Part shown: positions 47,144 through 64,000 of the stretch, piece after piece
Numbering within the stretch: the first letter of the stretch is position 1
Layout of the letters: each line of letters starts with the position of its first letter
NCBI RefSeq assembly: GCF_030815415.1
Contig: NZ_JAUSWW010000001.1
Span: 9,300,001-9,364,000 of the forward strand
Reading direction: 5' to 3'
DNA: 64,000 bases
From: Streptomyces canus
GTDB taxonomy: Bacteria > Actinomycetota > Actinomycetes > Streptomycetales > Streptomycetaceae
The notes under the pieces: model-generated
Told to the model about the DNA's origin: nothing
What the model saw: the letters and a program-made list of their open reading frames with translations, nothing else
The model's database searches: none
Made by a program: the position numbers and the translations under genes

Positions 47144-47265
47144 ACCGACTGATGGCCATCACTGCGGCACGGGGAGTTGGTGCCTCGTGACAAAGGCGTC
47201 GGCCGGTGCTGCGATGTTGTGAGCAAGGGCCGGTGGGACCGGTTTCGCGGTCCTACCGTCCCAGC

Positions 47266-49005: not shown

Positions 49006-49084
49006 TCGGTCGGTCGCGGTCAAGGGGTGGATCATGCGAGGCCGTTGCCCCAGGCCGCCGTTGCCGTTCCGGCATCGGCGGCCT

Positions 49085-49713
49085 GGGGCCGTGGACCGGT
49101 TTCGCCGAGCTGAGCGGTACCTCGATGGCCACCCCGAATGTCGCGGTCGCCGCCGCCCTCCTGACGCAGCAGCACCCACCGACGACCAGCCGGTCGAAGC
49201 GCTCGCTTGGACGGCAAGCCCGCCCCCGGGGGCATGTTCGAGATCCCCTCGCGCCAGGTCACCGTTCCGGCGGGCGGTACGGCGGGCACCACGGTGACCG
49301 GCGATACCCGCGTCGGCGGCGAGAGAAAGCCGGCCGGCAACGGCTGGACGAGGATCAACGGGCGGGGCCGTGACCACACCGCGGACGTCGGCGACTCGGA
49401 CGGAGAGGTCACCGTGCGCCTGCCCAAGGGCAGTTACGCGCTCACCGGGATCCTCAACGGTGAAGCCGAGCCGGCCGCCGACTCGTACTTCTGCGCTCGG
49501 CGCGTTCACCACCGACGTCCCGCGCAAGGACCTCGCCAAAATCAACTTCACGGTGGGGACACTCCGCGGAACAGTGGACGGCGCTGTCCTCGCTGCTGCG
49601 CCGGTGGACCTGCGTTCCGGGCTCGCTCCGTCTCGCTGCGGGCCGAGCTGAACGACCGTGACGGCAACACCCTGGTCCGGACCGTCGAGCGGGCCTACCT
49701 CGCCGTCCGGTAG
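49085..49713 (+). pseudogene. Remnant of a subtilisin-like (S8) serine protease
   Basis: The plus strand reads FAELSGTSMATPNVAVAAAL, the catalytic-serine block of subtilases, at about 49106-49165. It is followed in other frames by PGGMFEIPSRQVTVPAGGTA (about 49230), TADVGDSDGEVTVRLPKGSY (about 49380), LAKINFTVGTLRGTVDG and AELNDRDGNTLVRTVERAYL up to the stop at 49713. The Asp and His parts of the triad and the signal are missing, and at least two frame changes are needed to follow the rest. Confidence 0.75.
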
Positions 49714-49768
49714 GGCAAGAGCGCCACGGCGTGTCCGGGAGCTGTCTCCCGGGCACGCCGTGCGGAGG

Positions 49769-50410
49769 TCAGACCTTGGTCGCGGCGAAGGCGGCCGCCG
49801 CGTCTGCGTTCGCGGTGTAGCCGAGGTGGGCGCCCACGTCGCCCCCGCCGTTCTCGCAGACCGGGTCGCCGGCCGCGCAGAAGTCGATGGTGCGGTTCTG
49901 GTACGTGCCGGTGACGCTCTTGCCGATGGCGCGGATCGGGTTGCCGAACAGCAGCACCGCGGCGACCTTGGGTTCGAGCGCGGTGGGAATCGTCGCCACG
50001 ATCGGGCTGCCGACGACCGCGCCGGCGCTGCTGATGCCGATGGAGTTGTCGACGACGTTCGCGCCCTGCGAATAGCCGACGAGAATAAAACGCTGGTTCG
50101 GACAGGAAGCGGCCTGGCTCCTGACATGGTTCACCAGGTCCGTGTTGCCCTGTGCGGCCGAGGTGAGGGAAAGGTCGGCGGGATAGTTCACCTTGTAGCT
50201 GGACAGTGATTTGCCGGTGATTTTCTTCTGCAGGGCGGAATACACCGGGTCGCCGACGATGAAGCCGAGTGTGCCGGGCTCGAACGTGCCGCGCGCCGCG
50301 ACGACGTCGATGTCCGTGCAGGCTGCGGCTGTTGCCGTGGGGGCCGAGACGGTGGCCAGTCCCGCTCCGGCGATCAGCGAGAGCGCGGCGAAACACAAGC
50401 GGATACGCAT
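49769..50410 (-). CDS. Secreted cutinase-family hydrolase
   Basis: This 213-residue protein has a signal peptide (about 1-29, ending TATAAA) and the cutinase core: VVAARGTFEPG, nucleophile S114 in VGYSQGAN, the aspartate in CAAGDPVC and the histidine in GAHLGYT. Four cysteines can form the two usual disulfides. It cleaves cutin, polyester or lipid esters outside the cell. The ATG at 50410 has AAAGGA six bases upstream. Mycobacterial cutinase Rv3802c sits in the Pks13 locus, so its nearness to the Pks13-like operon is notable. Confidence 0.9.
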   Translation of the reverse strand: MRIRLCFAALSLIAGAGLATVSAPTATAAACTDIDVVAARGTFEPGTLGFIVGDPVYSALQKKITGKSLSSYKVNYPADLSLTSAAQGNTDLVNHVRSQAASCPNQRFILVGYSQGANVVDNSIGISSAGAVVGSPIVATIPTALEPKVAAVLLFGNPIRAIGKSVTGTYQNRTIDFCAAGDPVCENGGGDVGAHLGYTANADAAAAFAATKV

Positions 50411-50659
50411 GGGGATCCTTTGAGGGTGGGGCGCGTGCAGCGCCTGTGGAAAGGACGTCCCGAACGTATTCGCGTCGACGGACCGGGTGTGATGGACGGG
50501 AATTAAGGAATTCCTCGTCTTTTTGTGCCGAGGTGAGTAAGGGTATTTCTCACTGACGTGATCTGGCGGGGTGACTCGACCCGGGCAATCCCGCGAGTGG
50601 CGATGAGTTTGGCGGCCTCCGGCAGTCGTACGGTGAAACCCTGCTTCCGAGGAGGACAT

Positions 50660-51226
50660 GTGACGCGCAGCGTGACCTATTCGATGAACGTCTCACTCGA
50701 CGGCTACATCGTCGGGCCCGACGGCGGCTTCGACTGGTCGGTGCCCGACCCGGACGTCTTCCGCTTCTGGATCGACGAGATCCGGGAGGTCGGCGTTCAC
50801 CTGATGGGGCGGCGGCTGTACGAGACGATGCTGTACTGGGAGACCGCCGGCCAGGACGGGCCGCTCGACGAGGCCGAGCTCGAGTGGGTCGCGCTCTGGA
50901 ATCCGCTGCCCAAGGTGGTGTTCTCCACCACGCTGTCGGCGGTGCGGGGCCATGCCCGACTGGCCTCCGGCGGCGTCGCGGAGGAGATCGAGCGGTTGCG
51001 CGCCGAGCCGGGGGAGGGCGACATCGCCATCGGCGGGGCGACGCTCGCCGCCGAAGCGGCCGCGGCGGGTCTGATCGACGAGTACCGGGCCGTGGTCTAC
51101 CCGGTGCTGGTCGGCGGAGGCATCCCGTTCTTTCCCCGGGACGAGCGCCGGGTGGATCTCGAACTCGTCGAGACCCGCACCTTCAACTCGAAATTCGTCT
51201 ACCTCCGCCATCGCGTGACGCGTTAG
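50660..51226 (+). CDS. Dihydrofolate reductase-like (RibD C-terminal domain) protein
   Basis: This 188-residue DHFR/RibD-fold protein has SMNVSLDGYIVGPDGGFDW at the start, VHLMGRRLYETMLYWET as the NADPH-binding helix, GDIAIGGATLAAEAAAAGL and VVYPVLVGGGIPFFP. The GTG at 50660 follows GGAGGA. It is convergent with the PucR-type regulator. It is a distant relative of the gene at 32513. Confidence 0.87.
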   Translation: MTRSVTYSMNVSLDGYIVGPDGGFDWSVPDPDVFRFWIDEIREVGVHLMGRRLYETMLYWETAGQDGPLDEAELEWVALWNPLPKVVFSTTLSAVRGHARLASGGVAEEIERLRAEPGEGDIAIGGATLAAEAAAAGLIDEYRAVVYPVLVGGGIPFFPRDERRVDLELVETRTFNSKFVYLRHRVTR

Positions 51227-51260
51227 CCGACTCGTCGCCGAGAAGGCGCCGTCGGCTTCC

Positions 51261-52487
51261 CTATGGGGTGAAGGTGCCGTCGTCCCGCAATGCCTCCGCG
51301 CGCAGGGCGAGGATCAGGTCCAGGCGGGCGCCCGGGTCGTGCAGGGCGTCGCCGAAGAGCTTCTCCAACTGGCGCAGGCGGTAACGCACCGTCTGCGGGT
51401 GGACGTGGAGGCGGGCGGCGACGTCGGGCACGTTGCTGCCGCTCAGCAGCCACGCCAGGAGCGTCTCGGCGAGCCGTCCGCGCGGCCCCTCCGCGACCGC
51501 GTCCAGCGGGCCCAGCACCCGCGACTGGAGCTGGGCGAGCATCGGTTCGTCGGCGTGCAGCAGCAGCGTCGACAGATGGTCGGCGCAGCGCACCACGCCC
51601 TGCCGGGGCAGGATGCCGCGCCCCATCAGGCCGAGCGCCCGGGTGGCCCAGTGCAGCGAGCGGGCGGCCTCGTCGAGCGGGACCGTCGGTCCGATCGCGG
51701 CGGGCCGGCCGCGCAGCGCGAGCGTGAACGCCCGGCCGCCGAAACGGCCGGAACCGTCCGGGTCGGGCACCAGCATCCGCGGCGGCCGGGAGTCCATGTC
51801 CACCAGCGCCCCCGCGGCCGCCAACGGCCGGTCCGCCTCCCGCTGGTCCGGGGCCGACGCGAGCGCGACCACCGCGACCTGTCTCGGCACCGACCACCGG
51901 GCACCGTGCGCCAGATCCTGCACCGCCTCCGGTGCCACCGGCCCCTCGCCCAGCAGCAGACCGAGCAGCCGCCGGCGACGCCGCTCCAGTTCGTCCGTGC
52001 TGCGCAGCCGCGCCTCCGCGTATCCGGCGGCGGCCGCCTCGGCGACCTCGTGCACCGTCTGGAAAGCGAGTTCGCCCAGCGTGGAGACCACCGAGGAGTC
52101 CAGTCCGAGTTCCTCCGCGGTACGGCCCATCAGCCGCCAGGCGTGCAGACCGCCGATCCGTAACGCGGACTGCAAGGCGTCCAGACCACGCCCTTCCATG
52201 GCCTCGCCGCGCCCGAGTTCGTAGTACGTGGCGGTGATGGCGGCGCCCTGGCCGTGCGGATCCGCGATGTGGTCGACGAACAGGGTCAGTGCCTGTACGA
52301 CCCCGGATCTCAGGTGCGTTCCGTACGTTCCCGGCCGGGCGTACTCGGGGACCTGTCTGCGTACCTCCTCCTCGACCTCGTCGGCGACGGACTCCAACTG
52401 GTCGCGCAGCAGCTTGGCCAACTCGGGGGGCACCGGGGCGGCGTGCGGGCCGTCCGGTACGCCGGGCGGTGGTGTGGGGGCAGCCAC
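51261..52487 (-). CDS. PucR/CdaR-type transcriptional regulator
   Basis: This 408-residue regulator ends in a PucR-type HTH (LAETLLAWLLSGSNVPDVAA, then RLHVHPQTVRYRLRQLEKLF). The N-terminal part (about 20-150) is a helical RsbRD-like sensor region (LESVADEVEEEVRRQVPEYA). The GTG at 52487 has AAAGGAGGG about seven bases upstream. It lies 122 bases downstream of the antigen-85-like esterase on the same strand and is the likeliest local regulator of the Pks13-like operon. Confidence 0.88.
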   Translation of the reverse strand: MAAPTPPPGVPDGPHAAPVPPELAKLLRDQLESVADEVEEEVRRQVPEYARPGTYGTHLRSGVVQALTLFVDHIADPHGQGAAITATYYELGRGEAMEGRGLDALQSALRIGGLHAWRLMGRTAEELGLDSSVVSTLGELAFQTVHEVAEAAAAGYAEARLRSTDELERRRRRLLGLLLGEGPVAPEAVQDLAHGARWSVPRQVAVVALASAPDQREADRPLAAAGALVDMDSRPPRMLVPDPDGSGRFGGRAFTLALRGRPAAIGPTVPLDEAARSLHWATRALGLMGRGILPRQGVVRCADHLSTLLLHADEPMLAQLQSRVLGPLDAVAEGPRGRLAETLLAWLLSGSNVPDVAARLHVHPQTVRYRLRQLEKLFGDALHDPGARLDLILALRAEALRDDGTFTP

Positions 52488-52609
52488 GGCGGACCCTCCT
52501 TTCACCCGGAAGCGGCTCACCCGCGGGCTGGTGCCCGTGGGGCGAGGGACAAGTCCTGGGTTGGACGTACGTCCCCTGCGCTCCGTTCCGTGCCCCGACG
52601 GCACCGGCC

Positions 52610-53626
52610 TCACGCCGGCACCCCCAGGGCACCGGCGAGCATCGGCCACGACGCGGCGAACTCCTGCTTCCAGTAGGCCCAGCTGTGCCCCCCTCCCGCG
52701 TAGTAGTGAGTCGTCACCGGTACGCGCAGCCGGGCGAGCGTGTCGGTGAAGGCGTGCGCTGACGGCCACAGCGCGCTCTCCAGCGCCTCCGGCAGCCAGT
52801 CGCCGCTCCCGCCCACCACCCCGCTGCCGCTGGACACGTACAGCGCGGTGCCGCGCAGCCCTGCCGCGCGCGCCCGCGGGTTGAAGTCCCGCCAGGTGAG
52901 CAGGTCCAGGATCGGGTTGCCCCACAGGGACAGTGGCGCCAGGTTCTCGCGGGCCACGATGGCGTCCATCAGGTTGGGCACGCCGGGGGCCGTGGTGTCG
53001 AGGATGCCGCTGTACGAGGCCGCCGCCGCGAACGTTCCCGGATGCCGCGCGGCGTGGGCCATCGCCCCGTAGCCGCCGGTGGAGACCCCGGCGACGACCC
53101 GGACCGCGGACGCCCGGTAGTCCCGGGCGAGCAGCGCGGGGACCTCGGTGAGCTGGAAGGTCTCGTAGTCGGGGCCGCTGCGCCAGGCGGTGGGGATGCC
53201 GGTGGGCCCGGCGTCCGGCATCGCCACGATCAGCTCCCGTCCCTCCGTGAACGCCACGATGTCCGTCTCCCGGGTCCAGGACGTGTAGTCGTCGTGGGCA
53301 CCGTGGAGGAGGTACAGCACGGGGTACGTGCGGCCGGGCTGTGTGGCGAAGGAGGAGGGCAGCACCAGCCGCACCGGGGCGCTGCGGCCCAGTGCGGCGG
53401 AGGGCAGGGAGACATCGAGGGTGCGGGGGCCGAGCCGGGTGACGCTGGGAGTGGCGGTGGCCGCCCGGCGGGTGGTCGCCCCGGCGGTGCCGGTCGCCGT
53501 GGCGCCGAAGAGGGCGGCGAGGCCGGTGGCGGCGGCCGCTCTGGTGACGGCGCGTCGGGACATTCCGGCGGTGCCGGCGGGTACTGCGGCGGTACCCCGG
53601 GACGATGCGGTGGTGCGGTCGGGCAT
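52610..53626 (-). CDS. Antigen 85-like exported esterase/acyltransferase
   Basis: This 338-residue hydrolase of the esterase D/antigen 85 family has a twin-arginine signal (MSRRAVTRAAAATGLAALFG, 22-41) and a nucleophile at S182 in GVSTGGYGAMAH. The C-terminus has HYYAGGGHSWAYWK, which holds the catalytic histidine. In mycobacteria, Ag85 (FbpA-D) moves mycolyl groups between trehalose and the wall, next to the pks13 locus. It starts 21 bases after the PKS stop (GAGGAG site), so it belongs to the operon and may transfer or release the product outside the membrane. Confidence 0.87.
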   Translation of the reverse strand: MPDRTTASSRGTAAVPAGTAGMSRRAVTRAAAATGLAALFGATATGTAGATTRRAATATPSVTRLGPRTLDVSLPSAALGRSAPVRLVLPSSFATQPGRTYPVLYLLHGAHDDYTSWTRETDIVAFTEGRELIVAMPDAGPTGIPTAWRSGPDYETFQLTEVPALLARDYRASAVRVVAGVSTGGYGAMAHAARHPGTFAAAASYSGILDTTAPGVPNLMDAIVARENLAPLSLWGNPILDLLTWRDFNPRARAAGLRGTALYVSSGSGVVGGSGDWLPEALESALWPSAHAFTDTLARLRVPVTTHYYAGGGHSWAYWKQEFAASWPMLAGALGVPA

Positions 53627-53647
53627 GGCGGCTCTCCTCGGTCGGAT

Positions 53648-56600
53648 TCAGCGGCGGTCCTTCGCGAGCTCCCGCCGCAGATGGGCGGCGATCTCATCGA
53701 CGTGCGGCGGGTCGAGGAGCGACAGATGGTGGCCCGTGACCCGGACGACGGACAGATCCGGGCACACCTCGTCCCAGCCGAGCGATGCGTCGTCGCGTTC
53801 GTACGCCGGGTCGCGCACGGTGTGCGGGGCCGGGTCGGTGGCCCGGTAGAGGACCACGGGCCCGTCGTGACGGCCCGGCCGATGGGCCTCGCCGATCCGC
53901 AGGTCCAGATAGGAGGACCGCTGGTGCTCGAGGGCGGCGCGCGGCAGGTCGGCCGCCTCGCTCAGGGCCCGCAGTACGGTGTCGATGCGCTCGCCGTCGT
54001 CCTGTGTCGCGACCAACTCGTCGTACGGCAGCCGCAGTTGGACGCCGTACGTCTCGGCGACATGGCGGGCGAAGCCGGTGAAGTGGGAGCGGATGCGGTC
54101 GGCCTCCGTGCCTTCCGTTCGAGGCAGCGGTCGTACGGAGTCGATGAGCACCACCAGCCGCACGTCCCGCCCGGCTGCCGTGAGCTGGCGCGCCGTCTCC
54201 TGTGCGACGAATCCGCCGAACGACCAACCGCCCAGCAGGCAGGGCCCGTCGGGGTGCGCGGCGGTCACCGCCTCGGCGTAGTGACGCGCCTTCTCGCCGA
54301 CCGTACGGGCCTCTGCGAGCCGCTCAAGGCCGTACACCGGCCGCTGTCCGCCGAGGCGTTCGACGAGGTTGCGGTAGACGTCGGTCGTGCCACCGGCGGC
54401 GTGGACGAGGAAGAGCGGGGGGTGGGAGCCCGCGAGGTGGAGGGCGTGGAGCGGGGGAGGAGGGTCGGACGTGAGCAGTGGCGGGATCGGGGGTTGTTCG
54501 CTGGTCGGCTTCGCCGGCGGCGCCTGGATGACCTCGGCCGCCGACGCGTTCCCCGGCAGTGCCTGCCGGATGCGGGTCGCCGTGTCCTCGATGGTGGTGG
54601 CGCCCAGCAGGTCGCGCAGGGGCAGTTCGATGGCGAATTCGCGTTCCACGGCGGTGCGGATGCGGACGGCCATCAGGGAGTCCAGGCCCAGTTCGGCGAA
54701 TGCCGTGGTGGGGGTGATGCGAGTCGGCGGGTGTCCGGTGACGGCGGCGATGTGATGGCAGAGACGGTCCGAGACCGAGGCGCCCTCCGCCACGCGTCCG
54801 CTTTCCGGCAGGTGCCCGCCCGCCGCAGGCACCGCGCGGCCCGCCATGGAGAGCGGGCCCCGTGCCGACCACGCCCTCGGCAGACCCGTTGCCGACCCCT
54901 CCGTGCGCCCGTCCGTCCACCAGTGCCGCACGTGCCGCCAGCGAGGCAGGGGCAGGTCGGTGATCCGGCCGGGCGGCAGCGGCAGGCGCGACCCGGCGGT
55001 GTGGAGGGTGCCGAGTTGGGTGAGGAAGTCGGCGGAGGTGTCTGCGCCGCGGTGGAGGGTGCCGAGGGCGAGGGCACCGGGCGCGGTGTCGGTGATGGCC
55101 CGGGTGAGGACGGGGTGGGGGGACAGCTCGACGAAGGCGGTGTGGCCGTCGGCGGCTGCCGCGGCGACGGCCCGGTCGAGGCGTACGGGCCGTCGCAGGT
55201 TCGCGACCCAATGCGCCGCGTCGAAGACGCAGTCGCCCCGCGGGTCGTCCAGCACGGTGGAGTAGACGGGGATACGGGGACGGCCACCTCGGATGTCCGC
55301 GAGCGCGTCGGCCAACTCCGCCAGCAGCGGCTCCACTTGAGGGGAGTGCCCCGCCCCGACCACTCGCATCGCACGCGCGGCCCGTCCTTTTTGCTCGAGT
55401 CGACGCACGAGCCGGGCCACCGCGGCCTCCTCCCCGGTGACCACCTTCTGGCGGGGCGAGGAATGCACGGCGACATGGACACCGGGAAAGTCCCGTTCCA
55501 GAGAGTCGAGTTCACCGTCGTCGAGGTCCACCACCGCCATCGACCCACCGCGCAATCCGCTGAGCAGCCGGGCCCGTACGGCGACGACGCGCGCCGCGTC
55601 CGACACCTCCAGCGCGCCCGCGCACACCGCGGCGGCCACCTCGCCCAGGGAGTGCCCGATCACGGCGACCGGCTCGACGCCGTGCGCCCGCCACAGCTCG
55701 GCGAGAGCCAACTGGAAGCCGAAGAGCACGGGTTGAGCGACCTCCAGCCGGTCGAGGCCGCCGCCGGAAGCCAGGTGGTCGCAGAGGGAGAACCCGCACT
55801 CGGGGGCCAGTTGCGCGTCCACCTTCTCCACGGCAGCGGCGAAGTCGGGTTCCTCGTCCAACAGCCGCCGTCCCATGCCGGCCCACTGGCTCCCGTACCC
55901 GGAGAAGACCCACACCGGGCCGCGCCCGACGAGATCCAGGTCGCCCGTCATGACCCGCGCGTGCGGTCGCCCTGCCGCCAACGCACCGAGCCCGTCCGCC
56001 AGTTCGGCTCGGTCACCGGCGACGATCGCGGCTCGCGCAGGCCCCCGCCCCGTCCGCCCGGCGAGCGTACGGGCCACATCGGCGAGGTGCGTGGCACCTG
56101 CCGCGGGCGTGCCGAGCCAGGCCGCCAGCCGGCCGGCGGTGTCACGGACGCGCACGGCGTCGGCGTCGGACAGGAGGTGGAGGCGGGCGGGGGGTTCGTC
56201 GGCAGGGGGCGGGAGGAGGGCGCCGGGCCGCCATTCCTCCAGTACGGCGTGGGCGTTGGTGCCGCCGAACCCGAATCCGGAGACCCCGGCCGTGGCAGTA
56301 CCGCCGTACCGGGGCCAGGGCTCGGCCTCCGTCACGACCCGCAGTCGTACGTCGTCGTCCAGGGCGCTGCCTTCGGCACAGTGCAGCGAGGGCGGGATCA
56401 GGTCGTGGTGGAGGGCGAGCACCGTCTTCACCAGGCCGGCGATGCCCGCGGCGGACTCCAGGTGGCCGAGGTTGCCCTTGACCGAGCCCAGGAGCAGCGG
56501 CTGGTCGGGGTCGCGGCCCGTGCCGAGCACGGCGCCGAGCGCGCCCGCCTCGATGGGGTCGCCGAGCGGGGTGCCGGTGCCGTGCGCCTCGACGTGGTCG

Positions 56601-57838
56601 ATGCGTGCGGGGGCGAGCCCGGCTCGCACGTATGCGGTCGTCAAGAGGGCTTGCTGGGCAGCCGGGTTGGGGGCGAGGAGGCCGTTGGAGCGTCCGTCGG
56701 AGTTGACGGCGGTGGCGCGGATGACGGCGAGGACGCGGTCGCCGTCCCGCTCGGCGTCGGACAGCCGCTTCAGCAGCACCGCCGCGCAGCCCTCACCGCG
56801 GCCGATGCCGTCCGCCGCCGCCGAGAACGGCTTGCAGCGCCCGTCCGGCGCGAGCGCGCCCGCCCGCCGGAACGCGACGGTGACCGTGGGCGAGAGCAGC
56901 AGATTGACCCCCGCGGCGATCGCCAGGTCGCTCTCGCCCGTGCGCAGGCTGACGCACGCGTGGTGCACGGCGACCAGCGACGACGAGCACGCGGTGTCGA
57001 CGGCCATGCTCGGCCCGCGCGTGTCCAGGGCGTACGACAGCCGGCCCGCCGCCACGCTCAGCGCCCCGCCCGCGGGGGCCCACGGATCGACGGCCTCGGG
57101 GTCGGCACCGGTGAGCTGGCCGTACTCGGGGGCCGAGACCCCGACGAAGACACCGGTAGCGGTGCCGGCGAGGGACGCGGCCGGGACGGCGGCGTGGTCG
57201 AGGGTCTCCTGGACGACCTCCAGCAGGATCCGCTGCTGCGGGTCCATCACCGCGGCCTCGCGCGGCGTGATGCGGAAGAAGTCCGCGTCGAACCCGGCGA
57301 CGTCGTCCAGGTAGCCGCCGTACGGGAGCGCGTCGGCGGGCGGGTACGGCGTGAAGTCCCGCCACCGGTCCTCCGGGACCCGCCGGATCGCGTCGACACC
57401 CTCACGCAGCAACCGCCAGTACGCGTCCGGGCCGTGCACACCCCCGGGCAGTCGGCAGCCGATCCCGACGACCGCGATCGGCTCGCCGGGCTCGGGTGCG
57501 GGAGCCGTGGGCCGATGAGCCGCGCTCTCCGCCGGAGCGATGTCCGCCGCGGCACCGCACACCCGCTCCACCAGCGCGTCCCCCGTGGCCGCCTCCCACA
57601 GCAGCGTCGCCGGCAGGTCGAGGCCCGTGGCCCGGGACAACTCCCCGGCCAGCGCGACCGCGTCCCGCGAGGACATCCCGAGATCCGCGAGCGGCTGGTC
57701 CATCGGCACGTCCCCGACCGCGATCCCGCTCCAGGCGGCCACCTTCTCGGCGATCAGCCGACGCAACGCGGCTTCTTCGCCCTCCCCTTCGGCGACCAGG
57801 CGGTGCAGGTTGCCTTCTCGCCCGCTCGCGCCCCTCAT
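53648..57838 (-). CDS. Pks13-like type I polyketide synthase (ACP-KS-AT-ACP-TE)
   Basis: This 1396-residue PKS has the module order of mycobacterial Pks13. ACP1 (about 25-95, Ser in DLGMSSRDA), KS (about 120-545, C284 in DTACSSS, H419 in EAHGTGT, H459 in GNLGHLES), AT (about 640-940, S730 in GHSLGE, H831 in GAGHSPQ), ACP2 (about 1025-1095, S1054 in LGLDSLMAV) and TE (about 1140-1390, S1206 in GGWSFGG, histidine in GHHLSLL). There are no KR, DH or ER domains, so one Claisen condensation gives a beta-keto product. The ATG at 57838 overlaps the acyl-AMP ligase stop as ATGA. Confidence 0.95.
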   Translation of the reverse strand: MRGASGREGNLHRLVAEGEGEEAALRRLIAEKVAAWSGIAVGDVPMDQPLADLGMSSRDAVALAGELSRATGLDLPATLLWEAATGDALVERVCGAAADIAPAESAAHRPTAPAPEPGEPIAVVGIGCRLPGGVHGPDAYWRLLREGVDAIRRVPEDRWRDFTPYPPADALPYGGYLDDVAGFDADFFRITPREAAVMDPQQRILLEVVQETLDHAAVPAASLAGTATGVFVGVSAPEYGQLTGADPEAVDPWAPAGGALSVAAGRLSYALDTRGPSMAVDTACSSSLVAVHHACVSLRTGESDLAIAAGVNLLLSPTVTVAFRRAGALAPDGRCKPFSAAADGIGRGEGCAAVLLKRLSDAERDGDRVLAVIRATAVNSDGRSNGLLAPNPAAQQALLTTAYVRAGLAPARIDHVEAHGTGTPLGDPIEAGALGAVLGTGRDPDQPLLLGSVKGNLGHLESAAGIAGLVKTVLALHHDLIPPSLHCAEGSALDDDVRLRVVTEAEPWPRYGGTATAGVSGFGFGGTNAHAVLEEWRPGALLPPPADEPPARLHLLSDADAVRVRDTAGRLAAWLGTPAAGATHLADVARTLAGRTGRGPARAAIVAGDRAELADGLGALAAGRPHARVMTGDLDLVGRGPVWVFSGYGSQWAGMGRRLLDEEPDFAAAVEKVDAQLAPECGFSLCDHLASGGGLDRLEVAQPVLFGFQLALAELWRAHGVEPVAVIGHSLGEVAAAVCAGALEVSDAARVVAVRARLLSGLRGGSMAVVDLDDGELDSLERDFPGVHVAVHSSPRQKVVTGEEAAVARLVRRLEQKGRAARAMRVVGAGHSPQVEPLLAELADALADIRGGRPRIPVYSTVLDDPRGDCVFDAAHWVANLRRPVRLDRAVAAAAADGHTAFVELSPHPVLTRAITDTAPGALALGTLHRGADTSADFLTQLGTLHTAGSRLPLPPGRITDLPLPRWRHVRHWWTDGRTEGSATGLPRAWSARGPLSMAGRAVPAAGGHLPESGRVAEGASVSDRLCHHIAAVTGHPPTRITPTTAFAELGLDSLMAVRIRTAVEREFAIELPLRDLLGATTIEDTATRIRQALPGNASAAEVIQAPPAKPTSEQPPIPPLLTSDPPPPLHALHLAGSHPPLFLVHAAGGTTDVYRNLVERLGGQRPVYGLERLAEARTVGEKARHYAEAVTAAHPDGPCLLGGWSFGGFVAQETARQLTAAGRDVRLVVLIDSVRPLPRTEGTEADRIRSHFTGFARHVAETYGVQLRLPYDELVATQDDGERIDTVLRALSEAADLPRAALEHQRSSYLDLRIGEAHRPGRHDGPVVLYRATDPAPHTVRDPAYERDDASLGWDEVCPDLSVVRVTGHHLSLLDPPHVDEIAAHLRRELAKDRR

Positions 57839-59583
57839 CCCGCGACCTCCGCCGCGTAGGCACCCGCCAGATAGCGCTCGCGGGTCAGCGCCCGGGACAC
57901 CTTCCCGCTGGAGGTACGGGGCACCGTGCCCGGCGGGACGAGAACCACGTCGGAGAGCCGCAGCCCGTGCCGGGCGGAGACGGCCGCGCGTACGGTCCGC
58001 ACGAGGGCCGGTACGTCGATGTCGGCGAGCGGCACGGCCCGTGCGTGCTCCGCGACGACGATCACCCGTTCCCCGGAGCTGCCCGGTACGCCGAACGCGG
58101 CGAGCCGGTCGCGTCGTACGGTCGGATGGGCGTCCTGGGCCGTGGCCTCGACGTCCTGCGGGTAGTGGTTGCGTCCGTCGACGACGATGAGGTCCTTCAG
58201 CCGCCCGGTGACGATCAACTGCCCGTCCAGGACCGTCCCCAGATCGCCGGTGCGCAGCCACTTGCCCGGCCCGGCCGCGACATCGGCGAGTTCGGCCCCG
58301 AAGACGCGCAGGGTCTGGGGCTCCTGGTTCCGGTATCCCCGCCCCACGTTGGGGCCCTGCACCCAGATCTCGCCGACCTCGCCCTCGGCCAGTGCCTCCC
58401 GCGACACCGGGTCGGCGATCCGCACACGCTGGCCCGCCGGAGCCCCGCAGCCGGCCAGCAGCACGGCCCTCGGGTCGTCGGGCCGCGCGGGCAGGGCCTT
58501 CCCGGTGGCCAGGGCGTCACGGTCGAGCGCGAATCTGCGCAACGGCTGCCAAGGGCGGGCGGCACTGACGAACACGGTCGCCTCGGCCAGCCCGTACGAC
58601 GGACAGTGCGTCTCCGGGGGGAGTCCCTGGGCGCCGAACGCGGCGTGGAAACGGTCGGCCGTGCCGGCGCGGACCGGCTCGCTTCCGTTGATCAGGGCGA
58701 AGACGCCGTCCAGCCGCAGGTCGGCTTTCTGCGCCTCGGTGACCGTCGACGCGCAGTAGTCGTAGGCGAAGTTGGGCGCCGCGCTCAGCGCGCGCGGGTG
58801 CGCGGCCAGCAGCCGCAGCCAGCGCACCGGTTCGTGCAGGAAGGCCACCGGATCCATGAGCACGGACAACAGCCCCCGCACCACCGGCGCCGCGACACTG
58901 AGCACGAGTCCCATGTCGTGGTACAGCGGCAGCCAGCCCACACAGGTCACCGGATGCACGTCGGCACCGTAGGCGGTCAGCGCCTGGCGGGCGTTGGCGA
59001 CGACATTGGCATGGGTGATCTCCACACCCGCCGGGGTGCGGGTCGAGCCGGAGGTGTACTGGAGGTACCCGACCGCCTCGGCGTCGAGGGTGCGGGGCTG
59101 CCAGTCACCGGCGGTGGCGTCGGACACTTGGTCCCCGGCGACGACCTTCACGTCCCGGCCCTCGCACAACTCGCGTACCTCCGCGAGAGCCTGACCTGTC
59201 GTCACGACGACCGCCGGGCGCGCGTCCGCCAGCACCGCCGACAGCCGGTCGCCCTGCCCGGGCAGCCCGGGTGGATACAGCGGTACGGCGACCAGGCCGG
59301 CGGCCAGCGCCCCGAGAAAGGCGGTGATGTAGTCCGTCCCCTGCGGACACAGCACCGCGACACGCTCCCCGGGCTCCGCCTCGGCGGCGAGCCGGGCGGC
59401 CATGGCCCGCATCCGCAGGTCCAGTCGGCGCCAGGTCAGCGTGCGATGGACGCCGCGCGAATGCGGCGCCGGATGGTCGACGAAGGTGAACGCCCGGCGG
59501 TCGGGGGTGGTCTCGGCCCAGTGCCGCACGTACTCCGGCAGACTCCGGAACACGGGCGCGAGCGGGGGGCGGCGGCTGTCCAT
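57835..59583 (-). CDS. FadD32-like fatty acyl-AMP ligase
   Basis: This 582-residue adenylating enzyme activates a fatty acid and loads it on the PKS ACP. Marks are YLQYTSGSTRTPAG (173-186), SYGLAEATVFVSA, the A8 region TGRLKDLIVVDGRNHYPQDV and the A10 lysine in PRTSSGKVSR. The DGRNHYPQD motif and the FadD32-like start (TLTWRRLDLRMRAMA) distinguish FAALs from CoA ligases. The ATG at 59583 has GAGGAG ten bases upstream. It follows the carboxyltransferase by 38 bases. Confidence 0.93.
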   Translation of the reverse strand: MDSRRPPLAPVFRSLPEYVRHWAETTPDRRAFTFVDHPAPHSRGVHRTLTWRRLDLRMRAMAARLAAEAEPGERVAVLCPQGTDYITAFLGALAAGLVAVPLYPPGLPGQGDRLSAVLADARPAVVVTTGQALAEVRELCEGRDVKVVAGDQVSDATAGDWQPRTLDAEAVGYLQYTSGSTRTPAGVEITHANVVANARQALTAYGADVHPVTCVGWLPLYHDMGLVLSVAAPVVRGLLSVLMDPVAFLHEPVRWLRLLAAHPRALSAAPNFAYDYCASTVTEAQKADLRLDGVFALINGSEPVRAGTADRFHAAFGAQGLPPETHCPSYGLAEATVFVSAARPWQPLRRFALDRDALATGKALPARPDDPRAVLLAGCGAPAGQRVRIADPVSREALAEGEVGEIWVQGPNVGRGYRNQEPQTLRVFGAELADVAAGPGKWLRTGDLGTVLDGQLIVTGRLKDLIVVDGRNHYPQDVEATAQDAHPTVRRDRLAAFGVPGSSGERVIVVAEHARAVPLADIDVPALVRTVRAAVSARHGLRLSDVVLVPPGTVPRTSSGKVSRALTRERYLAGAYAAEVAG

Positions 59584-59621
59584 CGGGCATGGGCTCCTCA
59601 CGTCGCGGGGACGGCTAGCGG

Positions 59622-61232
59622 TCAGAGCGGGATGTTGCCGTGGCGGCGCTCCGGCATCGGTGCCCGCTTGCCGCGCAGGGCGCGCAGGGCACGGCAGATG
59701 TGGGCGCGGGTGTCGCGGGGGGCGATGACGGCGTCGATGTAACCGCGCTCGGCGGCGAGGTACGGGGTCCCGTACGTGCTCTCGTACGCGGTGAGGAGAC
59801 GGGCGCGCAATGCCTCGGGGTCGGCCGCGGCGGCCAGTTCACGGCGATGCAGGACGCCCACCGCACCCTCGGCACCCATGACGGCGATGCGGGCGGTCGG
59901 CCAGGCGAGGTTGATGTCGGCGCCCAGGTGCTTTGAGCCCATCACCGCGTACCCGCCGCCGTACGCCTTGCGCACCACCACGGTGACCTTGGGGACGGTC
60001 GCCTCGGCGTACGCGTACAGGAGTTTGGCGCCGCGCCGGATGATGCCGGCCTGCTCCTGGCGGACTCCGGAGAGATAGCCCGGCACATCGGCGAAGGTCA
60101 GCAGGGGGATGCCGAACGCATCGCAGAACCGTACGAATCGTGCGGCCTTCTCGGACGCGTCGATGTCGAGGACCCCGGCGGCGTGCAGCGGCTGGTTGGC
60201 GACGACTCCGACGGCACCGCCCTCGACGAGGGCCAGTGCGCAGATGATGTTCGGCGCGAACAGCTCCTGCACTTCCAGGAGTTCGCCGTCGTCGACGACC
60301 GCGCGCAGGATGTCGCGCATGTCGTAGGCCTGACCGAGCCGGTCCGGAACCACCGTGTCGAGACATCGCCCGGCGGGCGCGGCCCCCGGCGCGTACTGCG
60401 GGGGCCGCTCCAGGTTGTTGGCGGGCAGGTACGACAGCAGGTCGCGGACGGTGTCGAGGGCGTTCACCTCGTCGGCGGCCAGGAAGTGGGCGTTGCCGTT
60501 GACGGTGTTGCTGGTGCGGGCGCCGCCCAGTTCCTCGGCGCTGGTGCGCTCGCCGGTGACCGTCTCGATGACGTCGGGACCGGTGACGAACATGTGCGAG
60601 GCACCGTCCACCATCACGGTGAAGTCGGTGATGGCCGGTGAGTACGCGGCCCCGCCGGCGCACGGGCCCAGGACGACCGAGATCTGCGGGATCACCCCGG
60701 ACGCCTGCACGTTGCGGCGCACCAGCTCGGCGTAGAGGGCGAGCGAGGTGACGCCCTCCTGGATACGGGCGCCACCGCCGTCGTTGAGGCCGATGACGGG
60801 GCAGCCGGTCTTCAGGGCGAGGTCCATCAGCGCGAGCGTCTTGTGCCCGAAGGCCTCGCCCATGCTGCCGCCGAAGACCGTGGAGTCCTGGGCGAAGACA
60901 CAGACGGCCCGGTTGTCGATCGTGCCGTACCCGGTGACCACCCCGTCGCCGTACGGGCGCCCGGCGCCGTCACCGGTGGGCCGGGCGCGTACGAACAGAC
61001 CCGTCTCGGTGAACGAACCCGCGTCCAGCAGCAGATCGATCCGCTCCCGGGCGCCGTACTCCCCCCGTCTCCTGGGCCCGTGCGCGGTGACCGCCCGCGT
61101 CCGGCGGCTCTCCAGTGCGCTGATGCGATCGAGGGTTCGGTCCACGGATCGTTCGGCGATCGGGTCGGGTACCCGGCCGGCCTCCCTCTCCGCCACCGGC
61201 CTCGCCCTGGATGTCTCCACCTCAAGTGTCAT
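59622..61232 (-). CDS. Acyl-CoA carboxylase carboxyltransferase (AccD4/PccB-like)
   Basis: This 536-residue carboxyltransferase beta subunit transfers carboxyl from biotin to an acyl-CoA. The two crotonase-like halves have oxyanion loops LGPCAGGAAYSPAITDF and RKAYGGGYAVMGSKHLGAD. In mycobacteria AccD4 makes the long carboxyacyl-CoA extender for Pks13. No biotin-carboxylase (AccA) gene is in the window, so the holoenzyme would need one from elsewhere. The ATG at 61232 has GGAGG six bases upstream. First gene of the Pks13-like operon. Confidence 0.93.
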   Translation of the reverse strand: MTLEVETSRARPVAEREAGRVPDPIAERSVDRTLDRISALESRRTRAVTAHGPRRRGEYGARERIDLLLDAGSFTETGLFVRARPTGDGAGRPYGDGVVTGYGTIDNRAVCVFAQDSTVFGGSMGEAFGHKTLALMDLALKTGCPVIGLNDGGGARIQEGVTSLALYAELVRRNVQASGVIPQISVVLGPCAGGAAYSPAITDFTVMVDGASHMFVTGPDVIETVTGERTSAEELGGARTSNTVNGNAHFLAADEVNALDTVRDLLSYLPANNLERPPQYAPGAAPAGRCLDTVVPDRLGQAYDMRDILRAVVDDGELLEVQELFAPNIICALALVEGGAVGVVANQPLHAAGVLDIDASEKAARFVRFCDAFGIPLLTFADVPGYLSGVRQEQAGIIRRGAKLLYAYAEATVPKVTVVVRKAYGGGYAVMGSKHLGADINLAWPTARIAVMGAEGAVGVLHRRELAAAADPEALRARLLTAYESTYGTPYLAAERGYIDAVIAPRDTRAHICRALRALRGKRAPMPERRHGNIPL

Positions 61233-61403
61233 GGCCACCTCCGAAGTGGCTACCGAATATGGCAGCGCCGCAGGGGCGGACCGGCTCGATCGGCCTTCTG
61301 TTTGGGGGAGATGAGTCCCCGGGGGCCGTGGTTAGTCCGTGGGTGACAAGGGCCGGGGCGGGACGGGGGCGTCCCGCGGAACATCGAGGCGACGGCGTGC
61401 GGG

Positions 61404-62486
61404 TCAGTTGCGGCCTGCGCGTCGGCGGCGTACGGCGGCCGCCAGCTCGTCGAGGAGGCGCTCGGTCTCGCCCCAGCCGACACAGGCGTCGGTGACGCTC
61501 TGTCCGTAGACGAGTGTCTCCAGCGGGCCCGGTTCCTGCCGCCCCTCGGTGAGGAAGCTCTCCACCATCAGACCGGCGATCCCTGGTTCCCCCGCGGCGA
61601 CACGTGCGGCGATCTCACGGACGACGGCGGCCTGACGGACGTGGTCCTTACCGCTGTTGGCGTGGCTGGCGTCGATCACCAGGCGGGGTTCCCGTCCCGA
61701 CTTCGCGAGGAGGGCGATGGCGTCGCGGACGTCCTCGGGGCCGTGATTCGGGCCGCCGCGTCCGCCCCGCAGGATGACGTGACAGTCGGGATTTCCGCTG
61801 GTCGAGACGGTGGAGGCGTGCCCTTCGTCGTCGATGCCGAAGAACACGTGGTCGCCGGCCGAGGCCCGGCAGCCGTCGATCGCCGCCGTCACGTCCCCGT
61901 CCGTCGCGTTCTTGAACCCGACGGGCATCGACAGACCCGAGGCGAGCTGACGGTGCACCTGGCTCTCCGGTGTGCGCGCGCCGATGGCACCCCACGTCAC
62001 CGCGTCGGAGATGTACTGCGGGCTGGTCGGCTCCAGGAACTCACACCCCACCGGCAGGCCCGCGTCGAGCACGTCGAGCAGGACCTGACGGGCCATGCGC
62101 AACCCCAACTGCACGTCATGGGTGCCGTCCAGGTGCGGGTCGTTGATCAGGCCTTTCCAACCGACGGTCGTCCGAGGCTTCTCGAAGTACACGCGCATCA
62201 CCACGCAGAGCTCGTCACTGAGCGGGGCGACCGCTGCCGCCAGACGGTGCGCGTAGTCCCTGGCGGCTGCCGCGTCGTGCACCGAGCACGGGCCGACGAC
62301 CAGGAGGAGCCGATCGTCCTCACCGGTCAGCACCGCGTTGACGGCGCGGCGACTGTCCGCCACCGAGGCCGCGCGGGTCGAACCCAGCGGAAGCTCGTCG
62401 CGGAGGGCGGCTGGGGAGATGAGGGGCTGGAAGCCGGTGACGCGAAGGTCGTTGGTCCGGGGTGAGGCGCCGGTCGGTGTGGTCAT
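61404..62486 (-). CDS. Type I 3-deoxy-7-phosphoheptulonate (DAHP) synthase
   Basis: This 360-residue AroFGH-type enzyme condenses erythrose 4-phosphate with PEP, the first step of the shikimate pathway. Marks are LLLVVGPCSVHD, YFEKPRTTVGWKGLINDP, VGFKNATDGD and IDASHANSGKDH. Most streptomycete primary DAHP synthases are of the type II family, so this type I copy is probably specialised. An aromatic leader peptide and terminator precede it, so its transcription should respond to Trp/Tyr charging. It lies 171 bases before the carboxyltransferase on the same strand. Confidence 0.93.
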   Translation of the reverse strand: MTTPTGASPRTNDLRVTGFQPLISPAALRDELPLGSTRAASVADSRRAVNAVLTGEDDRLLLVVGPCSVHDAAAARDYAHRLAAAVAPLSDELCVVMRVYFEKPRTTVGWKGLINDPHLDGTHDVQLGLRMARQVLLDVLDAGLPVGCEFLEPTSPQYISDAVTWGAIGARTPESQVHRQLASGLSMPVGFKNATDGDVTAAIDGCRASAGDHVFFGIDDEGHASTVSTSGNPDCHVILRGGRGGPNHGPEDVRDAIALLAKSGREPRLVIDASHANSGKDHVRQAAVVREIAARVAAGEPGIAGLMVESFLTEGRQEPGPLETLVYGQSVTDACVGWGETERLLDELAAAVRRRRAGRN

Positions 62487-62571
62487 GGGGGAGGTTCCCG
62501 TCCTTTTCGTAAGGCGGGTCCGGTTCGGTACGTGTCTTCCACACCCGGGCCGGCCCGCCGTAAACGACGAA

Positions 62572-62596
62572 GGGCAGAGACGGACCGTCTCTGCCC
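62572..62596 (-). terminator. Attenuator terminator hairpin before the DAHP synthase gene
   Basis: GGGCAGAGACGG and CCGTCTCTGCCC are perfect 12-base arms around one base, followed on the mRNA by TTCGTCGTTT, a U-rich run. It sits 24 bases after the leader stop and 85 before the DAHP synthase ATG. Confidence 0.75.
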
Positions 62597-62620
62597 TGCT
62601 GGCTCCGGGTGAAGGGTTGG

Positions 62621-62683
62621 TCAGCGCACCTGACCCCCGGCTCCACCCGGAGCCGGCGGAAAGCGCCAATACCAACGATTCAC
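62621..62683 (-). CDS. Aromatic-residue leader peptide VNRWYWRF of the DAHP synthase gene
   Basis: A 20-codon frame (GTG at 62683, stop at 62621) begins VNRWYWRFPPAPGG. Codons 4-6 are Trp-Tyr-Trp and codon 8 is Phe. Just after them lie GGCTCCGGGT and GGAGCCGG, which pair perfectly (8 bp), and after the stop ACCCGGAGCC, an exact complement of GGCTCCGGGT, giving the alternative folds of a classical attenuator. It should sense charged tRNA(Trp)/tRNA(Tyr). Trp-type leaders are known before aromatic genes in streptomycetes. Confidence 0.75.
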   Translation of the reverse strand: MNRWYWRFPPAPGGAGGQVR

Positions 62684-62698
62684 CGTAGACACACGCGC

Positions 62699-62704
62699 AC
62701 AGTA
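62699..62704 (-). promoter_or_regulatory. Probable -10 box of the DAHP synthase attenuator transcript
   Basis: TACTGT on the minus strand lies 15 bases before the leader GTG. No strong -35 is visible at the expected distance. Confidence 0.35.
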
Positions 62705-62756
62705 GCGCCCCTTCGTGAGCGGCGTGTACTGCTTTTCCTCCGTGGCGGTGCCGTGT

Positions 62757-63740
62757 TCAGGACTCGCGGGTGCGGCGGGCCTCGGCCACGAGTGTGCCGG
62801 GCAGTCCCGGCCCCGCGCACGCGTAGTCGATCAGGAGGTCGCGGTACGAGGTGTTCGTGAGTTCCGGCGCGAGGGCGATCAGGTCCCGCAGGTTGTCGGA
62901 CGAGCCGGTCAGACGGGCGCGGTAGGCGGCGCGTGCCGCGCGTAGGGAGACTTCGTCCGAAGCGTGTGCCAGGCCCTGTTCGGCGTGGCTCACGGCCGCG
63001 GCGAAGTCGCCCTGTTCGGCACGCAGGTCCGCGAGGTCCAGGTGGAGCGACCAGTTGTCGGGCTCCAGGGCCAGGGCACGGATGAAGGCGGTCGCAGCCT
63101 GGTCCAGGTCACCCATCGCCCGCCAGGTGCCCGCTCGGGTGACCTCGGTCCACATGACCCGGTCGACGGCGTCGGCACGATCGCACAGCGCGAACGCCAG
63201 GTCATGGCGACCGCAGGCCCGAGGCAGCCGGGCCATGGAGGCCAGCGACTCCGGCACGGGACTGCGCTCGGACACGACGTCGAGGGCATGGAACCAGGGC
63301 GCGAACCGCTCACGCATCTCGTCGGAGTCCAGGACACGGCCGTAGTCCAAGGTCCGCAGACACGCCTCGGCCAGCGCCTGAGCACTCACCGCGCCGAGAA
63401 GGCCGGCATCGCCGAACCACGGGGCAGCGCCCCAGGCCACGTCCGGCCGCACCCCCGTGACCGAGCCGAGGGTCATCACCGCGTCGTCCATGTCCCCGTC
63501 GAGGAACAGGAAGTAGGCCTGCGCCGGCACAGTACTCAAGGAGCCGTCCCCTTCGAGACCCTCCTTCAGCTCGGAGCGCCGCTCACGCCACAACTCGGCG
63601 AGCGCCGCATAGGGCTCCGGGGCCGCCGGCGCGGAGGCTATCGCACCCACCAGATACTCCACGGCGCGCACCGGGCTTCCGCCGCAGTGCGCCATCACGC
63701 CGGCGAGCGCGACTCCCGCTGTCACTGAACGATTCGACAC
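62757..63740 (-). CDS. Tetratricopeptide-repeat protein
   Basis: This 327-residue helical protein has TPR-like repeats, clearest near residues 220-285 (AGTWRAMGDLDQAATAFIRA, then SLHLDLADLRAEQGDFAAAV and SHAEQGLAHA). No signal or catalytic motif is seen; it is presumably a protein-binding scaffold. The GTG at 63740 lies six bases after TATTCT, a -10-like box, so the transcript is probably leaderless. Confidence 0.72.
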   Translation of the reverse strand: MSNRSVTAGVALAGVMAHCGGSPVRAVEYLVGAIASAPAAPEPYAALAELWRERRSELKEGLEGDGSLSTVPAQAYFLFLDGDMDDAVMTLGSVTGVRPDVAWGAAPWFGDAGLLGAVSAQALAEACLRTLDYGRVLDSDEMRERFAPWFHALDVVSERSPVPESLASMARLPRACGRHDLAFALCDRADAVDRVMWTEVTRAGTWRAMGDLDQAATAFIRALALEPDNWSLHLDLADLRAEQGDFAAAVSHAEQGLAHASDEVSLRAARAAYRARLTGSSDNLRDLIALAPELTNTSYRDLLIDYACAGPGLPGTLVAEARRTRES

Positions 63741-63819
63741 CGCCAGAGAATATCCATGGCCCGCTGACCGGGCAGGACGTGGACCTCGCACGAGCGGCGG
63801 GGCCCACGTCGTCAGCCGG

Positions 63820-64000
63820 TCAGCAGGTCGAGCTGGTCTGGGTGAGCAGGCCCAGTCGCCACGGCAGGCTGTTGTAGTCGCCGCCCGCGCTGGGGTTCAT
63901 GCCTTGGTACAGGTACTGGAGCCTGCACGAGGGGATGGTCAGTGTCTGGTCGTAGCCGGCACGGATCATCTCGCCGTGGCTGATGTCCCTGGTCCAGGAG
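63820..64000 (-). CDS. GH62 alpha-L-arabinofuranosidase, C-terminal part (runs off the right edge)
   Basis: The last 60 codons of a secreted glycosidase are present. [37 protein letters not shown] and [11 protein letters not shown] match the conserved end of GH62 arabinofuranosidases, which remove arabinose side chains from arabinoxylan. The active site and signal lie outside the window. The frame is open to base 64000. Confidence 0.8.

Follow-up and report, generated by a model that had tools for sequence, protein, structure and literature searches.

Does a Streptomyces genome hold the machinery by which mycobacteria join two fatty chains, and if so, what would be made with it in a genus that, to our knowledge, is not known to make mycolates? 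Mycolate condensation is regarded as a hallmark of mycolate bacteria and is a drug target. The question is raised by a locus of Streptomyces canus (genome assembly of 10.8 Mb in 3 contigs), which lies in a stretch of 64,000 nucleotides of contig NZ_JAUSWW010000001.1 that we refer to as the window. At positions 52610-61232 of the window, on the minus strand, an original prediction had placed a set of genes resembling AccD4, FadD32, Pks13 and Ag85. We report that the cassette follows the plan of the mycolate condensation set but does not pass the equivalog tests for Pks13 and FadD32, and that the conserved unit is larger than four genes and comprises six. We consider it rather probable, judging from the sequences, that the operon encodes a mycolate-type Claisen condensation, in which a chain loaded by the ligase and a carboxylated medium or long acyl-CoA would be joined to an alpha-alkyl-beta-keto lipid. 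The six genes are the following.

59622-61238, minus strand: acyl-CoA carboxyltransferase beta subunit (CT), 538 amino acids; Pfam Carboxyl_trans (1.4e-178)
57835-59601, minus strand: fatty acyl-AMP ligase (FAAL), 588 amino acids counted from a GTG; AMP-binding (3.6e-61) and a DIP2-like AMP domain
53648-57838, minus strand: non-reducing single-module polyketide synthase (PKS), 1396 amino acids, with the Pfam domain order acyl carrier protein (ACP), ketosynthase (KS), acyltransferase (AT), ACP, thioesterase (TE); top NCBIfam model NF040607 (Pks13)
52610-53626, minus strand: exported esterase resembling Ag85 and mycoloyltransferases, 338 amino acids; PF00756
51261-52487, minus strand: regulator of the PucR type, a conserved neighbour; HTH_30 (2.5e-19)
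49769-50410, minus strand: secreted-type enzyme of the cutinase family, 213 amino acids, end of the conserved block; PF01083 (4.8e-40)

The first four genes, described originally as adjacent and co-directional, are indeed open frames that neighbour each other on the minus strand. Further details of that description were borne out as well, namely the motif DGRNHYPQD in the FAAL, the order ACP-KS-AT-ACP-TE without reductive domains in the PKS (no ketoreductase (KR), dehydratase (DH) or enoyl reductase (ER) in Pfam at E 0.001), the ATGA junction between FAAL and PKS, and the esterase ATG, preceded by GAGGAG, 21 bases past the PKS stop. The CT frame opens with a GTG at 61238; an ATG at 61232 with GGAGG before it is the better fit and the likely start, in agreement with the coordinate given originally. 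The FAAL likely starts at an in-frame ATG at 59583, and depending on the FAAL start chosen the gap to the CT is 20 or 38 bases. With respect to extent, the four genes stand as placed, whereas the stretch ends short of the conserved unit, the last gene of which is the cutinase at 49769-50410.

A pattern-based scan of a genome contig collection gave 78 loci from the best 80 of 92 confirmed stretches, and 61 of these loci come from records named Streptomyces. The locus of S. longisporoflavus (L086; 52% identity, different surroundings) was set aside, and the remaining 60 Streptomyces loci were compared. The order CT, FAAL, PKS, esterase, PucR regulator, cutinase on a single strand occurs in 50 of the 60, which is far beyond chance and answers the gene-cluster comparison proposed originally. 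The other 10 loci lack genes only at one end, where the sequence is short (11.6 to 15.8 kb). The regulator is found in 55 loci, the five exceptions being short sequences that break off within the PKS or shortly past it, and the cutinase is found in 54. None of the 60 gave a match to the upstream DAHP synthase, which marks the 5' border of the conserved unit. Median identities across the loci range from 76% (PKS) to 87% (CT), and the closest named relatives of the S. canus PKS are Streptomyces proteins with 84-88% identity at best. With regard to the frequency in the genus, which is based on 61 sampled genomes, the FAAL occurs at E up to 1e-150 in 10 of them (six at 79-100% identity, four at 50-58%); in the sample of the family it occurs in 4 of 41 genomes.

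The domains of the PKS were recognised in Pfam as ketoacyl-synt, Acyl_transf_1, two PP-binding stretches and Thioesterase. Active-site residues were counted in 63 PKS frames of the loci L027-L087, some of which are cut or broken, using the rows that cover the respective site.

57554-57766, minus strand: N-terminal ACP, LGMSSRDAVALA, with Ser57 as the expected phosphopantetheine site (Ser57 in 58 of 58 rows)
56228-57484, minus strand: ketosynthase with Cys284, His419 and His459 (each in 60 of 60)
54986-55915, minus strand: acyltransferase with GHSLGE (Ser730) and GAGH (Gly828-His831) (Ser730, Gly828 and His831 in 61 of 61)
54569-54769, minus strand: C-terminal ACP, LGLDSL (Ser1054), PP-binding at residues 1024-1090 (Ser in 60 of 60)
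53669-54418, minus strand: thioesterase with Ser1206, Asp1233 and His1370 (Ser in 58 of 58, Asp in 57 of 58, His in 57 of 57)

An Arg of the AT is likewise kept in all 61 covering rows, and the sole exception for the TE Asp is a Thr in one piece of the broken assembly of L087. The Pks13 active-site residues of the five domains are thus present in the operon PKS, and the loss of such residues, which had been named as an argument against the likeness, is not the case. The N-terminal ACP motif of Pks13 reads LGLSSRDAVAMA in three of four rows and FGLASRDALALG in the fourth, to which the operon motif is close. The best solved relatives of the TE are Pks13 TE chains (1e-39 to 5e-38), followed by the next chain at 1.1e-19. 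The AT of the operon family shows GAGH, where GASH stands in the four Pks13 rows whose AT could be aligned and other ATs mostly have YASH, HAFH or variants; this is no more than suggestive.

Trees were calculated with 15 of the 61 Streptomyces loci (14 and L087), together with the window's own locus and one further genome of the genus (L135). In the careful KS tree, built from 43 of 73 rows after long or redundant ones, among them the A. vastitatis PKS L119, had been dropped, the operon KS falls into a clade with support of 100/100 together with Pks13, relatives bearing KR and DH, and two FAAL-linked modules of Mycolicibacterium, with the modular KSs outside. This is the KS phylogeny that had been proposed as a check, and it came out in favour of the Pks13 connection, with the operon KS grouped with Pks13 and related ACP-KS synthases. 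An ordinary modular PKS is ruled out by the position of the KS outside the modular group. Members of the clade mostly adjoin a FAAL gene, and most of those from Streptosporangiaceae show none in the fetched DNA. The quick KS tree places the A. vastitatis PKS L119 beside Pks13 (support 92). The TE tree (29 of 39 rows) is mostly without resolution. A shared ancestry of the operon PKS, Pks13 and their relatives in one PKS family is well supported by these sequence comparisons.

The FAAL groups with FAALs, both in the tree and by its best solved relatives (5d6j/5ey8 and chains of FadD23 and FadD32), and away from the more distant adenylate-forming proteins that the genome also encodes, as had been anticipated. 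In the quick tree its separation from other adenylate-forming enzymes has a Shimodaira-Hasegawa-like approximate likelihood ratio (SH-aLRT) support of 99, and the Streptomyces FAALs are joined to those of L086 and L156 at 98, a grouping that the careful tree (26 of 42 rows) leaves undecided. NCBIfam fatty acyl-AMP ligase models lead for this protein, none at its own cut-off. Asn478 of DGRNHYPQD is present in 60 of 60 covering rows. The same genome encodes a second FAAL (L143; 41-43% identity) at C1:9386881-9388560, about 23 kb beyond the end of the window. In the careful CT tree (25 of 35 rows) the split between the cassette CTs with AccD4 and the PccB- and AccB-like rows has values of 89/96 and is not starred; the quick tree starred the same split. 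The whole transfer of a mycobacterial locus is rejected, as FAAL, KS and CT are not nested within the mycobacterial rows in any tree.

The size of the second chain can be addressed by the acyl pocket of the CT. Out of 58 operon rows 56 have a residue at each of two pocket sites. At the site of PccB Asp421/422 all 56 carry Ala (Ala431 in S. canus), which is also found in five of five AccD4 rows, so that the carboxyltransferase was rightly compared to AccD4 in this respect. At the site of MccB Gly161 all 56 carry Val (Val173); AccD4 has Gly in four rows and Ser in one. As far as the available passages of PMC5187497 go, Asp421 of PccB is Ala in the medium-chain carboxylase MccB, the exchange of Asp421 to Ala permits the binding of longer chains such as butyryl-CoA, and Phe161 is universal in carboxylases known for acyl-CoAs of four carbons or less, with Gly in MccB. 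With Ala at site 421 and Val at site 161 both known size barriers are therefore absent from the operon CT. From the MccB-type pair Ala423 and Gly161 the Ala is present and the Gly is replaced by Val, which is bulkier, and the chains of the operon CT may be shorter than those of AccD4. At the two sites the PccB-like protein of the same genome shows Asp and Phe, and the three AccB-like proteins show Ile and Phe; a plain PccB is rejected, since both pocket residues differ. In the alignment, the solved CT 9j0c carries Val at site 161 and has Gly in the place of the Ala. No text naming 9j0c was found in the open-licence literature, and the available part of PMC13118682 concerns a different beta/epsilon pair.

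The operon gave no match to an alpha subunit, so the CT must borrow one, as is proposed for MccB in the accessible part of PMC5187497. The original prediction had suggested looking for AccA and AccE elsewhere, and biotin carboxylases and epsilon subunits are present elsewhere in the genome: five biotin-carboxylase C-terminal domains, one of them near the PccB-like gene, and four epsilon subunits, each adjoining another CT. Two further AccB-like carboxyltransferases lie on contig C2 (79.9-81.5 kb and 170.0-171.9 kb) with an epsilon subunit beside each.

The esterase also has its nearest relatives among the enzymes of mycolate transfer. Its best solved relative by sequence is the PS1/mycoloyltransferase A of C. 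glutamicum (5e-32), followed by an esterase (8e-20), Cmt1 (7e-15) and Ag85C (5.8e-12). The predicted structure (mean predicted local distance difference test score, pLDDT, of 84) has an alpha/beta-hydrolase fold closest to mycoloyltransferase A and Ag85A/B/C (Z 33.4 to 32, with 33.4 for 6sx4). A triad Ser182-Glu283-His314 is aligned with the Ag85-like row of the mycobacterial Pks13 locus L154, and Ser and His are kept in 56 of 56 rows. The protein is thus mycoloyltransferase-like in sequence, triad and fold, in agreement with the exported antigen-85-type esterase described originally. By eye, its N-terminus appears twin-arginine-like (SRRAVTR). Cutinase-family genes occur also in L154 and beside the Amycolatopsis cassette L090.

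For comparison with known systems we used five Pks13 genes above 2100 bits as yardsticks, two from named Mycolicibacterium genomes and three from a sample of 80 of the phylum; the names FadD32 and AccD4 were given to the yardstick FAAL and CT genes by position beside Pks13. Two multi-module Mycolicibacterium frames of nearly 6000 amino acids pass the Pks13 cut-off via summed pieces only and were not counted as Pks13. The locus L154 has the order Ag85-like, MPT51-like, cutinase, FAAL, Pks13, CT, so that every enzyme type of L154 is also represented in the operon, in different order. The mycobacterial and corynebacterial fadD32-pks13-accD4 locus, together with Ag85 and cutinase, resembles the operon in the enzyme types, the PKS domain order, a similar N-terminal ACP motif, the Pks13-type TE, the CT pocket Ala, the mycoloyltransferase-like exported esterase and a cutinase-family gene nearby. 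It differs in gene order, in the length of the PKS (open frames of 1788-1891 amino acids for Pks13 compared to 1396), in the AT motif (GQSLGE compared to GHSLGE) and in CT site 161 (Gly compared to Val); the operon PKS and FAAL stay under the equivalog cut-offs and the operon has a PucR regulator.

Related sets of FAAL, PKS, CT and esterase occur together in other orders in Amycolatopsis, Saccharopolyspora, Wenjunlia and Parafrankia. Three Amycolatopsis loci (L090, L092, L096) share the FAAL, PKS, CT and esterase, a cutinase close by (Pfam-checked in L090) and the CT Ala, with Gly at CT site 161; they differ in gene order, and the one PKS scanned (L090) has DH and KR. They are probably the cryptic Amycolatopsis cluster with a single PKS module and an MccB-like CT that is mentioned in the available passages of PMC5187497. 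From the same passages, MccB (stambomycin, S. ambofaciens) shares with the operon the acyl-pocket Ala and is a PccB-like CT tied to a PKS; it differs in Gly161 compared to Val, and it partners a large modular PKS that comes with a CoA ligase where the operon has a FAAL. The PKSs of Streptosporangiaceae (L091, L094, L095, L097-L100, L103) are 48-54% identical, with GAGH in the aligned ATs and an esterase gene beside them, but have no CT in the fetched DNA, a FAAL fragment in L091 only, and KR and weak DH in L094, the one scanned. Their esterase genes lie on the strand opposite to the PKS. A domain scan of five outlying PKSs showed both KR and DH in L088, L090 and L094 (weak in the last), KR in L101 (Mycolicibacterium) and neither of the two in L086; DH- and KR-bearing enzymes are among the PKSs from outside Streptomyces that are closest over the whole protein. 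The order ACP-KS-AT-ACP-TE without reductive domains was also found in L086, L064, L067 and L156; in L156, from another genus of the family, CT, FAAL and non-reducing PKS stand in the same order. No description of the cassette in Streptomyces was recognised in the open-licence literature by titles and starts of abstracts, a scope that leaves out most subscription journals and makes this a weak negative.

Several observations weigh against the mycolate-type condensation. The PKS scores 1187.7 bits on NF040607 where the cut-off is 2100, and is by this score not a Pks13 orthologue; single-gene Pks13 of two Mycolicibacterium genomes reach about 2802 bits. The FAAL scores 503.9 bits on the FadD32 model (NF038339) compared to a cut-off of 975. 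The sister relations to the mycobacterial enzymes lack clear support: a clade of operon KS and Pks13 is absent from the best tree, though not rejected (approximately unbiased test, AU, p 0.178), and for operon FAAL with FadD32 and operon CT with AccD4 as one clade the careful trees give AU p 0.216 and 0.073, respectively. Among solved structures the AT is closest to PpsA, PpsC and MAS; modular ATs follow and Pks13 ranks below them, which argues against a simple Pks13 identity. The CT has 61-64% identity to PccB compared to 49-55% to AccD4, and Val instead of Gly at site 161. GAGH occurs also in DH- and KR-bearing relatives with undefined extender, and a comparable AT motif was found non-decisive in the part of PMC6090053 that was available. 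The fold of the esterase has relatives among esterase D and S-formylglutathione hydrolase at Z of about 30, just below the mycoloyltransferases. From the set of AccD4, FadD32, Pks13 and Ag85 proposed originally, the enzyme types, the KS clade, the active sites, the CT Ala and the mycoloyltransferase-like esterase consequently stand; an AccD4-FadD32-Pks13 operon proper does not, given the scores far under the cut-offs, the AT nearer to PpsA and MAS, the CT nearer to PccB and the DH- and KR-bearing PKSs among the closest outside relatives.

PpsA and MAS use short extenders. The nearness of the AT to them, the identity of the CT to PccB, and the resemblance of the DH- and KR-bearing relatives to ordinary reducing modules would fit an explanation by which the CT supplies malonyl, methylmalonyl or ethylmalonyl units, and the PKS lengthens the FAAL-loaded fatty acid in one or a few rounds, so that a short-branched beta-keto acid, a methyl ketone or a pyrone would result and the resemblance to mycolate synthesis would be one of architecture only. 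We regard this as the foremost alternative, though an unlikely one, as both size-limiting residues of the CT are changed in all operon rows with a residue there, the AT has GAGH and not YASH or HAFH, and a Pks13-type TE and a mycoloyltransferase-like esterase are kept within one conserved unit.

If the mycolate-type condensation applies, the FAAL would convert a free fatty acid to an acyl-AMP and load it on the N-terminal ACP, from which the KS would take the chain. Together with a biotin carboxylase from elsewhere in the genome, and perhaps with an epsilon subunit that it borrows, the CT could convert an acyl-CoA of medium or greater length to an alkylmalonyl-CoA by carboxylation, as the pocket residues suggest, and the AT would place the alkylmalonyl unit on the C-terminal ACP. 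The KS may then join the two chains once, yielding an alpha-alkyl-beta-ketoacyl-ACP that would stay unreduced on the enzyme, and the Pks13-type TE could release the product as an acid or onto an acceptor. Outside the cell the exported Ag85-like enzyme might transfer or hydrolyse the acyl ester, which the cutinase may trim; the PucR protein would regulate the set. No reductase was found by Pfam among the six conserved genes; no genome-wide search for CmrA was made. If no reduction takes place, decarboxylation of the free acid could yield a ketone, and an unlinked reductase is possible. In the available part of PMC2568869, M. smegmatis without its mycolate reductase is described to form beta-oxo mycolates and ketones, so that a ketone would be a fair prediction here if no unlinked reductase acts.

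The original prediction had also suggested a beta-lactone, for which nothing was found in its favour. Alpha-branched beta-oxygenated skeletons are a natural precursor of beta-lactones, and in the lipstatin or nocardiolactone kind of pathway an unlinked enzyme would reduce the condensed acid before the ring is closed, with esterase and cutinase serving self-protection or release. The six conserved genes, however, include neither a reductase nor a lactone-forming synthetase, and the PKS terminates in a TE, which makes such a product improbable. We are equally doubtful, if not slightly more so, about the use of plant or other external lipids, in which cutinase and esterase would free fatty acids for activation by the FAAL, with the PKS product being minor or a signal. 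Both the cutinase and the exported esterase belong to the conserved block, and several carriers, e.g. S. ipomoeae and S. turgidiscabies, are plant-associated, but most named carriers are not known as such, and CT, FAAL and PKS form a biosynthetic and not a catabolic set. That a complete mycolate locus was taken over from Mycobacteriales and persists as a relic with little function is very improbable despite the gene types shared with L154 (Ag85-like, cutinase, FAAL, Pks13, CT), given the active sites kept across the compared loci and the branching of FAAL, KS and CT outside the mycobacterial rows.

The cassette suggests that its carriers make a branched lipid, though mycolates are not known from them. 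Going further, we tentatively propose that many Streptomyces could make a short mycolate-like lipid, two fatty chains joined by FAAL, a carboxylase that forms alkylmalonyl units and a Pks13-type PKS and esterified outside the cell to a sugar or envelope acceptor by the mycoloyltransferase-like enzyme. If true, mycolate condensation would represent a single branch of a more ancient lipid system of actinomycetes. A conserved set that shares the logic of mycolate condensation, present in dozens of Streptomyces, would supply harmless and tractable relatives of Pks13, FadD32, AccD4 and Ag85, and with related PKSs with and without reductive domains in one clade it would help to show the origin of the mycolate system. 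It also predicts that a class of lipids has gone unnoticed in a genus that is well studied.

Some features lie around or between the genes of the unit. A RibD_C-type gene (50558-51226, plus strand) stands between the PucR regulator and the cutinase; it was not matched at that position in the other loci, and L049 and L051 have a relative upstream of the operon. At 47206-49005 on the plus strand there is a frame of 599 amino acids with no Pfam match at 1e-5, relatives of which occur downstream of the cutinase in many Streptomyces loci. Rfam at gathering scores gave no match in 49000-63900, and a promoter and terminator scan of 49700-62800, of a kind that suits Streptomyces promoters poorly, detected no promoter and a single terminator-like site, which lies outside the operon. 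Upstream of the DAHP synthase (62480-62710, minus strand) a short frame, STVNRWYWRFPPAPGGAGGQVR followed by a stop, precedes a strong G+C hairpin, GGGCAGAGACGGTCCGTCTCTGCCC, with a T-rich tail, and the element looks like an aromatic amino acid attenuator.

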